Shown here: piece after piece, positions 28,440 to 41,508 of the stretch
How the letters are laid out: every line of letters begins with the position of its first letter
Numbering within the stretch: the stretch's first letter is position 1
Source of the DNA: Bacillus pumilus
Lineage (GTDB): Bacteria > Bacillota > Bacilli > Bacillales > Bacillaceae
Assembly: GCF_003431975.1 (NCBI RefSeq)
Contig: NZ_CP027116.1
Span: 806,001-870,000 of the forward strand
DNA: 64,000 bases
Reading direction: 5' to 3'
Translations under genes and position numbers: made by a program
Notes under the pieces: model-generated
Seen by the model: only the letters and a program-made list of their open reading frames with translations
Database searches by the model: none
Told to the model about the DNA's origin: nothing

Positions 28440-28464
28440 GAAGGGAGTTTGACTCCCTTCCTTT
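28440..28464 (+). repeat. 25-bp terminator hairpin, left target duplication of miniature element copy 1
   Basis: GAAGGGAGT-TTG-ACTCCCTTC followed by CTTT. The identical 25 bases recur at 28640-28664, immediately after the element's terminal CTG. Each copy is a stem-loop; the right copy is followed by the T-rich tail of a terminator. Confidence 0.85.
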
Positions 28465-28639
28465 CAGATTGTTGACAAAGGGCTGAAATGATGTTTATTT
28501 TAGCCCTTTGTCTTCTTTTCAGTGTGATAGAAAACCTTTGCATTCTAGGAAGGACGAGCACCGGAACGGAGCGAATTTGACATTCGTGAGTACCGGCGCG
28601 CAGGACTGACAAAGAATGCGAGGGTTTGTCTACATGCTG
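28465..28639 (+). mobile_element. 175-bp miniature inverted-repeat element, copy 1
   Basis: It begins CAGATTGTTGACAAA and ends TTTGTCTACATGCTG, an imperfect terminal inverted repeat. It contains a strong hairpin GACAAAGGGCT / AGCCCTTTGTC and a second structured region with CCGG / CCGG arms (28561-28564, 28593-28596). It matches copy 2 at 29414-29588 over its whole length and carries no ORF. It is flanked by a perfect 25-bp duplication of a terminator stem-loop, the hallmark of insertion. Non-autonomous; a transposase of the IS1182 type, as at 40033-41385, is the inferred mover. Confidence 0.8.
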
Positions 28640-28664
28640 GAAGGGAGTTTGACTCCCTTCCTTT
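28640..28664 (+). repeat. 25-bp terminator hairpin, right target duplication of copy 1
   Basis: Exact direct repeat of 28440-28464. Two more T then CGTC follow, completing a terminator that lies between the convergent small gene and the SMR gene. Confidence 0.85.
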
Positions 28665-28676
28665 TTCGTCATTTAA

Positions 28677-28991
28677 TCAAGCGAACAACTTCAGCCCAAC
28701 CACACCAATCACAATCAGCAGCAGGCTGAGGATACGAATCATGTTTTTCGGCTCTTTAAATAGAATCATATTAAATAAGACAGAGCCCGCCGTTCCAAGA
28801 CCAATCCAGACCGTATAGGCAACGGATACTTGAACGGAAGAGAACGAGGCGTATAAAAACAAAAAGGATAAGGCAAACCCGCCAACAAATAAAATGCCTG
28901 TCGTGATTTGCTTTTTCTTACTAAACATATTGAGGCCAATGGTTCCGCCGATTTCGCAGGCAGAGGCTAACAGTACAAAAAACCAGCCCAT
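28677..28991 (-). CDS. SMR-family efflux subunit, second of a pair
   Basis: A 104-residue small multidrug resistance protein with four membrane helices. The family glutamate is in the first helix (LLASACEIGGTIGLNMFS), and SVAYTVWIGLGTAGSVLFN matches the conserved AYAVWTGIG region. Its start immediately follows the stop of the other subunit (28992), so the two are translated together and probably form a heterodimeric proton-coupled exporter, like the paired SMR proteins of Bacillus (YkkCD, YvdRS). The substrate could be guanidinium, quaternary ammonium or another cation and is not deducible here. Confidence 0.88.
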   Translation of the reverse strand: MGWFFVLLASACEIGGTIGLNMFSKKKQITTGILFVGGFALSFLFLYASFSSVQVSVAYTVWIGLGTAGSVLFNMILFKEPKNMIRILSLLLIVIGVVGLKLFA

Positions 28992-29336
28992 TTATACCGC
29001 TTCTCCTTTCTGTTCATGTGCTTCTCCATCAGACACTTTCAGTCCAATAATGCCGAGAATTAAAATGCCCATAAATAAGAGCTTTTCTAATGAAAACGAA
29101 CCGCCGAACAGCGCATAATCCATCAAAGACGTACCAATCGTTCCAACTCCGGCAAACACGGCGTACACGGTCCCTGTCGGCAGCTTCTCGCAAGCTTTCA
29201 TTAAAAAATAAAAATCAACGGGGATCAGACAGATAATGATCGCCCATTCCCACACCGCATCAGCTTTATTTAAACCAAACACCCAAAGTAATTCAAATAA
29301 ACAAGTGAGTGCGACATACATCCAGCTTTTTTTCAT
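28992..29336 (-). CDS. SMR-family efflux subunit, first of a pair
   Basis: A 114-residue four-helix SMR protein. The helix 1 glutamate lies in VALTCLFELLWVFGLNKADA, and PTGTVYAVFAGVGTIGTS is the conserved central segment; a hydrophilic tail follows. The WVFGLNKADA start resembles the YkkC/Gdx side of paired SMR exporters. The start at 29336 has AGGAGG. A TGACGATTCGTCA palindrome 26 bases upstream, shared with the tetR promoter, suggests repression by the TetR protein encoded at 29612-30190. A miniature element lies between the regulator and this gene. Confidence 0.88.
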   Translation of the reverse strand: MKKSWMYVALTCLFELLWVFGLNKADAVWEWAIIICLIPVDFYFLMKACEKLPTGTVYAVFAGVGTIGTSLMDYALFGGSFSLEKLLFMGILILGIIGLKVSDGEAHEQKGEAV

Positions 29337-29361
29337 CCTATTTCCTCCTAAAACTTAAAAC

Positions 29362-29374
29362 TGACGATTCGTCA
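29362..29374. promoter_or_regulatory. Probable TetR operator of the SMR genes
   Basis: TGACGA-T-TCGTCA, a perfect palindrome upstream of the first SMR gene. A one-mismatch copy (TGACGATTTGTCA) lies upstream of the tetR gene at 30240-30252. Confidence 0.65.
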
Positions 29375-29393
29375 TTTTGAAACCAAAAAAGAG

Positions 29394-29413
29394 CGTACAG
29401 CAAATGCTGTACT
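29394..29413 (-). repeat. 20-bp terminator hairpin, left target duplication of copy 2
   Basis: CGTACAGCAAATGCTGTACT, repeated at 29589-29608 with one loop difference. On the minus strand this copy is followed by CTCTTTTTT, so it is the functional terminator end. Confidence 0.8.
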
Positions 29414-29588
29414 CAGATTGTCGACAAAGGGCTAAAATGAACTTTATTTTAGCCCTTTGTCTTCTTTTCAGTGTGATAGAAAACCTTTGCAGTCTAGGAA
29501 GGACGAGTACTGGCGCGGAGCGAATTTGACATTCGTGAGCACCAGCACGCAGGACTGACAACGAATGCGAGGGTTTGTCTACACGCTG
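29414..29588 (+). mobile_element. 175-bp miniature inverted-repeat element, copy 2
   Basis: Same length and orientation as copy 1. It begins CAGATTGTCGACAAA and ends TTTGTCTACACGCTG. The first hairpin is GGGCTAAAAT / ATTTTAGCCC. In the inner stem a C-G pair of copy 1 is replaced by T-A (29511 with 29544), a compensatory change. It is flanked by a 20-bp duplication of a different terminator hairpin, so the flanks come from the target and not from the element. It sits between tetR and its SMR target genes. Confidence 0.8.
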
Positions 29589-29608
29589 CGTACAGCAAGT
29601 GCTGTACT
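29589..29608 (-). repeat. 20-bp terminator hairpin, right target duplication of copy 2
   Basis: CGTACAGCAAGTGCTGTACT, a direct repeat of 29394-29413 with one mismatch in the loop, located just downstream of the tetR stop on the minus strand. Confidence 0.8.
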
Positions 29609-37800: not shown

Positions 37801-37824
37801 AAAAGCCGGCATATTGCCGGCTTT
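37801..37824 (+). terminator. Terminator after the ABC transporter
   Basis: AAAGCCGGC-ATATT-GCCGGCTTT, a perfect stem whose T run is interrupted by the miniature-element remnant beginning CAG at 37825. Confidence 0.85.
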
Positions 37825-37898
37825 CAGTGTATAGACAAACCATCGCATCGGTTCCTAGTCCTGAAACCCATTACTCACAATGACCCCTGATTCAGCTC
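37825..37898 (-). mobile_element. Decayed 175-bp-family miniature element, copy 3 (one end only)
   Basis: CAGTGTATAGACAAACCATCGCAT lines up with the reverse complement of the right end of copies 1 and 2 (CAGCATGTAGACAAACCCTCGCAT). The similarity continues through TCCTG and TACTCAC. It begins exactly at the base of a terminator hairpin, as the intact copies do. The other half and the second hairpin copy are gone. Confidence 0.6.
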
Positions 37899-39918: not shown

Positions 39919-39938
39919 AGGATGCCTTTTGGCATCCT
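39919..39938 (+). repeat. 20-bp terminator hairpin, left target duplication of the IS
   Basis: AGGATGCCTTTTGGCATCCT, identical to 41489-41508. The right copy is followed by the T run of the original anti-sigma terminator. Confidence 0.9.
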
Positions 39939-40025
39939 CAGATTGTAGAGAAACTCATGTTTTTCTACAATCTTTTTTATTTTTAGCGTAAGTATGATGG
40001 ATGAAAATTAATGAAAAAGGCTTCC

Positions 40026-40060
40026 CACACACCTAGCCTAGCTTCGCTAGGTGTGTGGCA
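40026..40060 (-). terminator. Terminator of the transposase gene
   Basis: CCACACACCTAGC / GCTAGGTGTGTGG inverted repeat next to the transposase stop, followed on the minus strand by GAAGCCTTTTTC. Confidence 0.7.
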
Positions 40061-41385
40061 ATCTTTTTCATGTTCTGGCACGCAGCTGTGAGGAGAACTT
40101 GCTCACTCACGTTTTGTTTTCCCCTCAACCGGCAGTAGCGAAGCCCATGCAGTTGTTTTGAATCTGCAAAGCTTCGCTCTATTTTTTCTTTTCTTTTTTT
40201 ATATAGCTCTTTTCCAGAGACAGTTAACCGATTCTGTCTGATCTTTTCTTTATGTTCTTCCCATATGTGTCTTGAGATGACCTTTTGATGATTTTTCGAC
40301 CTTGTGCATCTTTCAAGGAAAGGACACGATGCACATTTTTTAGGATCTGATTTGTAGAATCGATAACCTTTTCGATCAGTTGTCGTATATAAAAGCTTCT
40401 CACCCTGTGGGCATATGTAATGATCATGTTCAGAATCATACTGAAATTTCCACTTCTCAAATAACCCTCTTGTTGGATGAAAACGTCTATGGGCAATGAC
40501 ACCAAAAACATGTCGATCAGATAAACCTTTACAGATTGGTGTTGTCAAATAACCTGAATCAAGCGCAACAGCTTCTACTTGAAAACCAAATCGTGCGATT
40601 TGGTGATCTAATCGATCAAGATACGGGACAGAATCATGGACATTTCCAGGTGTGACATGAGCATCAGTGATGATATTGTACTTCATATCCGTTGTACGAT
40701 GATCTAGATAGAAAAAGCCTTCTGGCTTGTTTTCGCGATATAGATAGCCACTTTCAGGATCAGTCATACTTTGACGAATGTCTTTTTCTGTTTTCACCTC
40801 CTCTTTTACCTTTAAGAGCTTTTTTCCATGTGCCACCCGATCTTCTTGGACTGCTTCTTCTAAATCATTGATATAGTTCTGGGTATCTTGTTCAATCGTT
40901 TTTCTCGTATATTTATGTTTATTAGCATTGGCTTTAAGATGAGTTGAATCAGTAAAAAGAACGCGACCTCCTACCATATCATGATTGATAGCTTGAAGCA
41001 CAATCTCATCGAAAATGTCTTGAAAAATCGTTGTATTTTTAAATCGAGTACGACGATTCCAACTAATAGTGGAGTGATGGGGAACGGGATCATTGATGTT
41101 CAAACCTAAAAACCATCTATACGCCATGTTATAGTAAATTTCTTTTTCGAGTTGTCTTTCAGAACGGATACCGTACAGGTATCCGATAAACATCATTTTG
41201 AACAAAATAAGCGGATCAAGAGAAGGACGACCTTTATTTTCACTATAATAGGGTTTTACTTTATCTACGATAAATGAAAAATCAATGTATTGATCAATTT
41301 TACGAAGCAGGTGATCCTCTTCGACCAGTTGATCTAGCAATACAAATTCGGCTTCGTGCTGAGAAGAATTTCTAGTGTGGAACAT
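40033..41385 (-). CDS. IS1182-family DDE transposase
   Basis: A 450-residue transposase. The N-terminal DUF772-type region has GRPSLDPLILFKMMFIGYLY and LEKEIYYNMAYRWFLGL. A DDE core follows, with aspartates in LFTDSTHLKANANK and VALDSGYLTTP and a glutamate in KEKIERSFADSKQLHGLRY. A cysteine group CASCPFLERC lies before the glutamate, as in this family. The gene looks intact. The start at 41385 (MFHTRN) has AAGGAAGGTG upstream. It could act on its own ends and, given the shared end pattern, perhaps on the 175-bp elements. Confidence 0.92.
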   Translation of the reverse strand: MFHTRNSSQHEAEFVLLDQLVEEDHLLRKIDQYIDFSFIVDKVKPYYSENKGRPSLDPLILFKMMFIGYLYGIRSERQLEKEIYYNMAYRWFLGLNINDPVPHHSTISWNRRTRFKNTTIFQDIFDEIVLQAINHDMVGGRVLFTDSTHLKANANKHKYTRKTIEQDTQNYINDLEEAVQEDRVAHGKKLLKVKEEVKTEKDIRQSMTDPESGYLYRENKPEGFFYLDHRTTDMKYNIITDAHVTPGNVHDSVPYLDRLDHQIARFGFQVEAVALDSGYLTTPICKGLSDRHVFGVIAHRRFHPTRGLFEKWKFQYDSEHDHYICPQGEKLLYTTTDRKGYRFYKSDPKKCASCPFLERCTRSKNHQKVISRHIWEEHKEKIRQNRLTVSGKELYKKRKEKIERSFADSKQLHGLRYCRLRGKQNVSEQVLLTAACQNMKKIATHLAKLG

Positions 41386-41488
41386 GAGAAAAAACACCTT
41401 CCTTAAGTGGGTTTTTCTCTATTATAAAATGAGGAGATGGAAAGTTTAAGGGGAAAAATAAAGCTGTCGAGATTTTCTCGACAGCCTG

Positions 41489-41508
41489 AGGATGCCTTTT
41501 GGCATCCT
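41489..41508 (+). repeat. 20-bp terminator hairpin, right target duplication of the IS
   Basis: Exact copy of 39919-39938, followed by TTTTTT. Confidence 0.9.

Follow-up and report, generated by a model that had tools for sequence, protein, structure and literature searches.

ISfinder lists widely varying direct-repeat lengths for members of the IS1182 family, so single cases of hairpin duplication may be recorded there, and most DDE transposases leave a target-site duplication (TSD) of nearly fixed length. That transposition in the IS1182 family can seek out hairpins is already known (PMC4923244, PMC5678879). As far as the available portions of these accounts go, IS1272 and TnSha1 take hairpins as insertion sites, several of which have been confirmed as terminators; the hairpin is partly deleted and not duplicated, and orientation bias appears to be absent (PMC4923244). 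IS1272 is also described as replacing stem-loops; in the part of that account available, duplication of a whole stem-loop appears as pathway b of a model, in the legend of Fig. 13, and not as an outcome shown for IS1272, and Siguier et al. are credited, without detailed data, with palindrome targeting by some IS1182 members (PMC5678879). Excerpts from other reports add that IS1182 relatives act with or without a TSD and may read DNA structure (PMC12056078), that ISBpu1 and other IS1182-like elements have been named in B. pumilus (PMC7820076), and that IS1182 is among the families over-represented between convergent genes (PMC9208149), an excess that fits the hairpin-duplicating elements described here.

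The 175-bp elements of this study and the transposons related to them resemble IS1272 and TnSha1, as these are described in the accessible text, in the transposase family, which is shared by name only, and in having stem-loop targets without a common sequence, several of which are terminators. Target Z of TnSha1 was hit repeatedly in both orientations, and one terminator is reused here too. They differ in the fate of the target: IS1272 and TnSha1 remove all or part of the stem-loop and leave no TSD, whereas the elements studied here duplicate the entire hairpin, as seen at 84 of 94 MITE sites and at most resolved IS copies. ISBpu1 is likewise an IS1182-like element of B. pumilus and may belong to one of the two transposon types, IS-A and IS-B, described below. 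ISEfa7 (L311) and the IS1182 insertion sequence of a Staphylococcus simulans plasmid (L312) share the CAGNNTGTNGACAAA ends, belong to the same clade and have flanks that look hairpin-like by eye, but their two flanks are unlike each other and no TSD was seen there. The RUP, BOX and SPRITE repeats are also short, noncoding and mostly intergenic, and SPRITE is terminator-like, but in the portion of that account available no terminator hairpin duplicated as a TSD is mentioned for any of them (PMC10969869). Nothing on hairpin duplication was found in the accessible parts of PMC3281130 and PMC10969869. In a search of literature titles and abstracts, which left most subscription papers outside, neither this MITE nor hairpin duplication was described. 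The B. subtilis chromosome carries 190-bp repeats, and nothing on a relation to them was found among the titles and abstracts listed. Whole-hairpin duplication at this scale, the MITE itself, a cut distance set from the loop and an orientation linked to replication look new. This would be a mobile element that copies the regulatory part into which it lands, and it would give a natural set of terminator 3' ends with and without a structured insert.

The window analyzed here is a stretch of 64,000 nucleotides (positions 806001 to 870000) of the 3.94-Mb B. pumilus genome G000. By sequence reading and a repeat search, it holds two 175-bp elements in one orientation that are 92% identical, in agreement with the original prediction (Table 1). 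Their terminal inverted repeats are imperfect, as that prediction had also noted, with 12 of 20 end positions identical, and CAGNNTGTNGACAAA is present at both ends of both copies. The repeats around both copies are hairpins. Copy 1 lies between identical repeats of 25 bp (26 bp when a shared G at the junction is counted), with the TSD off-centre by 9 bases on one side of the loop and 13 on the other, and copy 2 lies between centred repeats of 20 bp with one mismatch. The direct-repeat scores of the two copies, 25 and 17, compare with a maximum of 6.5 among 2256 mismatched flank pairs, in which the left flank of one element was combined with the right flank of another, drawn from 48 G000 end pairs. 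These scores, together with the empty sites in relatives described below, support the proposal that the flanks are TSDs. Copy 1 separates a convergent small-multidrug-resistance gene from an ORF that follows a sortase gene. Copy 2 follows a tetR-type gene and precedes two paired small-multidrug-resistance genes. The listed ORFs that cross the elements (83 and 68 aa) extend out into the flanks; they look spurious, and the MITE appears to be without coding capacity for a transposase.

Table 1. Features of the window, with positions counted from its first nucleotide
Feature	Position	Strand	Remarks
Left TSD, copy 1	28440..28464	.	25 bp; hairpin GAAGGGAGT-TTG-ACTCCCTTC plus CTTT
MITE copy 1	28465..28639	+	175 bp; single-hairpin empty site in L062 (B. 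safensis), L064 (B. xiamenensis), L065 (Bacillus sp. 28A-2) and L066 (B. zhangzhouensis)
Internal hairpin 1 of copy 1	28474..28512	+	18 pairs, then TTCTTTTC; terminator-like on + strand; compensatory changes
Long snap-back hairpin 2 inside copy 1	28520..28639	+	Fold and compensatory changes
Right TSD, copy 1	28640..28664	.	T-tract retained
Left TSD, copy 2	29394..29413	.	20 bp (CGTACAGCAAATGCTGTACT)
MITE copy 2	29414..29588	+	175 bp; empty site in L060-L069
Right TSD, copy 2	29589..29608	.	One mismatch to left TSD
Terminator-like hairpin beside MITE relic	37801..37824	.	Sequence reading
Degenerate right end of third MITE (relic)	37825..37863	-	End motif with one mismatch; far border estimated by eye
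Left TSD, IS-B	39919..39938	.	Hairpin AGGATGCC-TTTT-GGCATCCT
IS-B	39939..41488	-	1550-bp IS1182-family transposon; ends CAGATTGTAGAGAAAC / CAGGCTGTCGAGAAAA
IS-B transposase	40033..41397	-	454 aa; NCBIfam NF033551; Pfam PF05598, PF13751, PF01609
Right TSD, IS-B	41489..41508	.	Followed by T-run

Short, without a transposase, bounded by terminal inverted repeats, provided with a TSD and an empty site, and present in dispersed copies, the 175-bp elements are a MITE. At least 40 near-full-length matches lie in G000 (40 scored among 96 candidates), where the end-motif pattern gave 56 forward and 48 reverse matches, compared with 5 and 8 for a control pattern. When a window copy was used as the query, 35 of 44 genomes of the genus matched at an E value of 0.001 or better; with a diverged copy, 38 of the 44 matched at 1e-8, as did 0 of 36 genomes from five other genera of the family. 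In a plasmid collection, matches were found in three records (NZ_CP078511.1, NZ_CP078512.1, and CP063894.1), two labelled Stutzerimonas and one Klebsiella, which we suspect to be contaminated assemblies, and no record of a phage collection matched.

Duplication of the hairpin is the usual state of these insertions. Among the 48 G000 end pairs, a direct repeat scoring 17 to 28 was found in 37 and one scoring 1 to 7 in 3, and no repeat was found in 8, which include one false pair (L180, 229 bp); a few pairs of odd length are doubtful. Pooling of 100 about full-length copies (38 from G000, 34 from G018, 20 from G022, and 8 from G021) gave 94 distinct sites. A TSD with a score of at least 12, and with it the duplicated hairpin flanks on which the original prediction turned, was present at 84 of the 94. 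A stable hairpin (32 nt, -7 kcal/mol or better) lay on at least one side of the element at 93 of the 94 sites, compared with 69 of 940 control windows, and an outer A-tract or T-tract, as in intrinsic terminators, was present at 81 of the 84 TSD sites, in line with the proposed selection of terminator stem-loops. In a simple ungapped test, the arms of the TSD were paired at 80% or more of positions in 59 of 84 cases, compared with 17 of 1880 control 24-mers, and at fewer than 80% in the other 25. Elsewhere in the genus, 26 of 29 MITE loci (L031-L059) have a direct repeat, a few of these repeats being imperfect or offset. On sequence reading, each duplicate loses the outer tract on its element-facing side and keeps an A-tract or T-tract only outward, so whichever the direction of transcription, it is probably the far hairpin copy that terminates it. 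The earlier proposal that a second terminator is left behind holds for the hairpin, which is duplicated, but not for intact tracts on both sides, the element-facing one being lost.

For 18 of the 37 G000 copies with good TSDs, the two flanks were joined and used as queries against four relatives. A single match spanning the junction was scored as empty and two half matches separated by a gap of MITE or IS size were scored as occupied; L025 in G018 was scored as occupied from reading of the locus. The 72 site-by-genome results comprised 48 empty, 18 occupied, and 6 other, and 17 of the 18 sites were empty in at least one relative. The exception, L022, shows a MITE-size gap in G021 and a decayed remnant in G028, and the matches in G018 and G022 have the same odd length as that in G028. 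Empty sites with one hairpin and no element were also found for both window copies: the site of copy 2 was empty in all 10 of the named pumilus-group loci, and 4 of the 10 show one clean hairpin at the site of copy 1, the other six having a different terminator or being unaligned there. MITE occupancy is strongly polymorphic among these relatives. One terminator holds a MITE in G000 and a 1503-bp IS-A in G021, and at another site the MITEs of G018 and G022 lie in opposite orientations.

To describe where the cuts fall on the hairpin, 70 clean TSDs were aligned with their stem-loops. These TSDs are of unlike sequence and range in length from 18 to 41 bp, and 56 of the 70 have their centre exactly on the hairpin dyad, with 65 lying no more than one base from it. 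In the 47 sites with fully paired arms, picked for clean pairing, the cut lies 9.8 bp from the loop (SD, 0.97), the distance being exactly 10 in 24; the length of the G/C stem is more variable (SD, 1.41), and the two lengths are correlated (r, 0.66). A cut simply at the foot of the stem was not supported, because the palindrome continues past the cut in 34 of these 47 sites. It is apparently the loop, at a distance of about one helical turn, and not the stem foot that sets the position of the cut.

The original prediction of a MITE family was borne out but lacked the autonomous IS1182-family relatives, which have the same end motif and the same targeting. A PF13751 profile gave 13 matches in G000. 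Two transposon types were distinguished, IS-A of about 1505 bp, with CAGNNTGTNGACAAA ends (one end has CAGACCGTAGACAAA), and IS-B of about 1550 bp, with CAGNNTGTNGAGAAA ends. The transposases of both belong to the IS1182 family, with scores of 479.9 bits (IS-B) and 476.8 bits (IS-A) against NF033551 (transpos_IS1182), for which the curated cut-off is 270. Solved structures searched by sequence with the IS-B transposase gave no match at an E value of 1. A direct repeat was present at both ends in 8 of 13 G000 loci (L160-L172), in 7 of 7 loci chosen from other genomes (L173-L179), and in 11 of 20 of the loci L120-L139, some of which are the same places as L160-L179; loci without a direct repeat are fragments, abutting copies, or unresolved. 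These repeats are nearly all hairpins, with short ones of 14 to 15 bp at two distinct places. Plasmid pBP-T2 of B. pumilus (NZ_MH594122.1) carries an IS-B with a hairpin TSD. The MITE and the IS have about 15 to 16 terminal bases in common and no interior. We infer that an IS1182 transposase moves the MITE, with the IS-A type as the best guess because its GACAAA ends match those of the MITE.

Among 120 genomes from the order, an IS1182-type match was found in 84 and exceeded the cut-off in 41. Thirty IS1182 loci from the order were inspected. CAG ends together with a hairpin TSD were found in 8 of them, 6 of which lie outside the genus (7 were identified by a script, which can miss cases, and L280 by eye); CAG ends without a matching repeat were found at L289 and L290, and neither feature was found in 20. 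The CAG-ended transposases form one group in the tree, with 95/97 support, inside which ISEfa7 and the S. simulans plasmid IS also fall. L289 was left aside in this tree because of a wrong-reading-frame row and a long branch; when L289 was kept and the two plasmid IS carried the label "other," three changes of label were counted on the tree.

One strand of the MITE folds into two hairpins (-80.9 kcal/mol; z, -9.7). The first resembles a terminator, with a T-rich run behind it, and the first bases of the second (CAGTGTGATAGAAAA in window copy 1) are paired to the right terminal repeat. Across 20 diverged copies, pairing is seen in 94.3% of cells and falls to about 40% when the partner is slid; 61 cells are changed on both sides, compared with 20.9 in shuffles, and none of 500 shuffles reached that count. 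Neither the number of pairs with both-side changes (10 versus 7.6; 26 of 500 shuffles as high) nor the number of further pair types (23 versus 24.5) is striking. The pairing and the both-side changes suggest that the structure is probably maintained, as DNA or RNA. The + strand gives the better fold in every one of 94 copies. Selection for RNA on one strand was set aside as a hint only, with 346 of 389 G-U cells coming from five positions shared by descent.

The orientation of the MITE was compared with a rule that places its minus strand on the right arm and its plus strand on the left arm of the chromosome, the terminus being taken as the point opposite dnaA. At distinct sites of G000, G018, and G022, in which dnaA lies at the contig start, 65 of 86 MITEs follow this rule (P value, 2e-6); orthologous insertions were merged in this set only. 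Sites between convergent genes follow it in 34 of 43 cases (P value, 2e-4), forward-only sites in 16 of 21, and reverse-only sites in 13 of 20, the last not significant. With gene calls taken as simple ORFs, MITEs point against transcription at 23 of 31 sites beside genes co-directional with the fork and at 4 of 10 beside head-on genes. These counts do not support orientation by transcription rather than replication: sites between convergent genes show the bias, and only 4 of the 10 head-on cases point against transcription. Among the matches listed for each genome, the bias is significant alone in G018 (28/34) and G000 (29/40) and not in G022 (27/40), G028 (17/26), or G043 (10/12). A second lineage (G005, G012, G035, and G036, with dnaA near the contig start) follows the rule in 49 of 62 matches, partial ones included, after 7 of 69 listed rows were dropped, namely, six short partial matches, all agreeing, and one second piece of the same element. 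In G039, the count is 26 of 33 with dnaA located and 19 of 33 with the origin misplaced (36 matches were listed, three of them second pieces), and G021, with 25 of 38 before and 24 of 38 after dnaA was located, adds no support. IS-B copies show no orientation bias (20/42), as counted in copies taken from PF13751 matches, with fragments excluded and the type judged by inspection. These unbiased copies weaken the idea of a fork-directed target choice by the transposase and suggest that the bias belongs to the MITE, which would favour retention over fork-directed insertion. Such a retention bias would mean that the more stable strand is kept off the lagging-strand template.

Collectively, it is very probable that the elements are nonautonomous MITE copies moved by transposases of one IS1182 clade. 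The transposase would attach one end of the element to each strand of the hairpin, at positions that mirror each other about 10 bp of stem away from the loop, and gap repair would copy everything between them, leaving a whole hairpin on each side. The target would be read as an extruded hairpin or cruciform and not as duplex sequence. The retained outer terminator would make insertions cheap, and it is plausible that they are nearly harmless to the host. Since the duplicated segment follows the hairpin in dozens of insertions per genome, with empty sites available, cruciform reading by the transposase is directly testable. A wider reading, which we offer tentatively and at slightly less than even odds, is that a DDE clade reads DNA shape and cuts the hairpin symmetrically about one helical turn from the loop, duplicating an intact regulatory part, and that retention of the MITE is biased by the fork, the folded strand being better tolerated on the leading-strand template.

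The transposase could instead read the features of a duplex terminator, namely, its A-tract, inverted symmetry, and T-tract, with a variable stagger and no extrusion. The TSDs do start with A in 63 of 70 cases and finish with T in as many, and they are flanked by A-rich and T-rich sequence. However, their length rises with loop length (slope of about 0.95 in a two-variable fit, with a plain correlation of only 0.32), so that such a reader would have to span a variable gap, and we consider this explanation unlikely. Coincidence of the TSD centre with the dyad over a range of lengths from 18 to 41 bp is what insertion without any choice of hairpins cannot produce. If the MITE inserted widely and selection spared only the insertions in terminators, hairpins at nearly all sites and the position of most G000 insertions close behind genes would follow, but loose intergenic insertions should survive too, and at most 1 of the 94 sites is without a hairpin by the threshold used; this is highly improbable.

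Single-hairpin empty sites in relatives contradict the view that the flanks are not TSDs at all, the element and the hairpin having been copied together or the terminators recombined, and the flanks differ between copies and match within most of them. Such an origin is barely credible for the family, although 10 of the 94 sites lack a TSD of score 12 and several of these carry a different hairpin on each side, which is what recombination between copies would produce. A repeat kept mainly for its use, as a functional host RNA or terminator module, is improbable as well: it would explain the very stable fold, the excess of both-side changes over shuffles, and an orientation that follows replication in two lineages, but not the strongly polymorphic occupancy, and a search of Rfam gave six matches, all below the gathering score, with no family reaching it. 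A host function could have been gained on top of the mobility of the MITE. Group II introns and REP-targeting IS were rejected as an explanation on the ground that group IIC introns are not known to make a TSD.

In L035, L131, and L212, a second element directly adjoins the duplicated hairpin of the first, and these tandem arrangements suggest that the duplicate hairpin serves as a new target; the spacing at L131, judged from its length, fits a MITE and an IS-B in one terminator. Near 1482 kb in G000 (L161 and L169), IS-A abuts IS-B at their hairpin ends, as if one IS took the end hairpin of the other as its target. The ends of IS-A and IS-B (L162 and L165) each fold into a hairpin of their own with a T-rich run nearby, so these IS may carry terminators at their borders. 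At a terminator that holds a MITE in G000, G018 has a stretch of about 4.7 kb with several ORFs (L190; G018:3102400-3107600), which also shows one end-like motif beside a similar hairpin. In the window, a terminator-like hairpin is followed by the degenerate right end of a third MITE, the other half of which appears to be lost. MITEs shortened to about 134 to 145 bp with the same ends were found at L146, L151, and L156 in G000 and at L192 in G021, and L153 may hold a much shorter version. The 145-bp form at L151 has a 29-bp hairpin repeat, so deletion derivatives of the MITE may still move.
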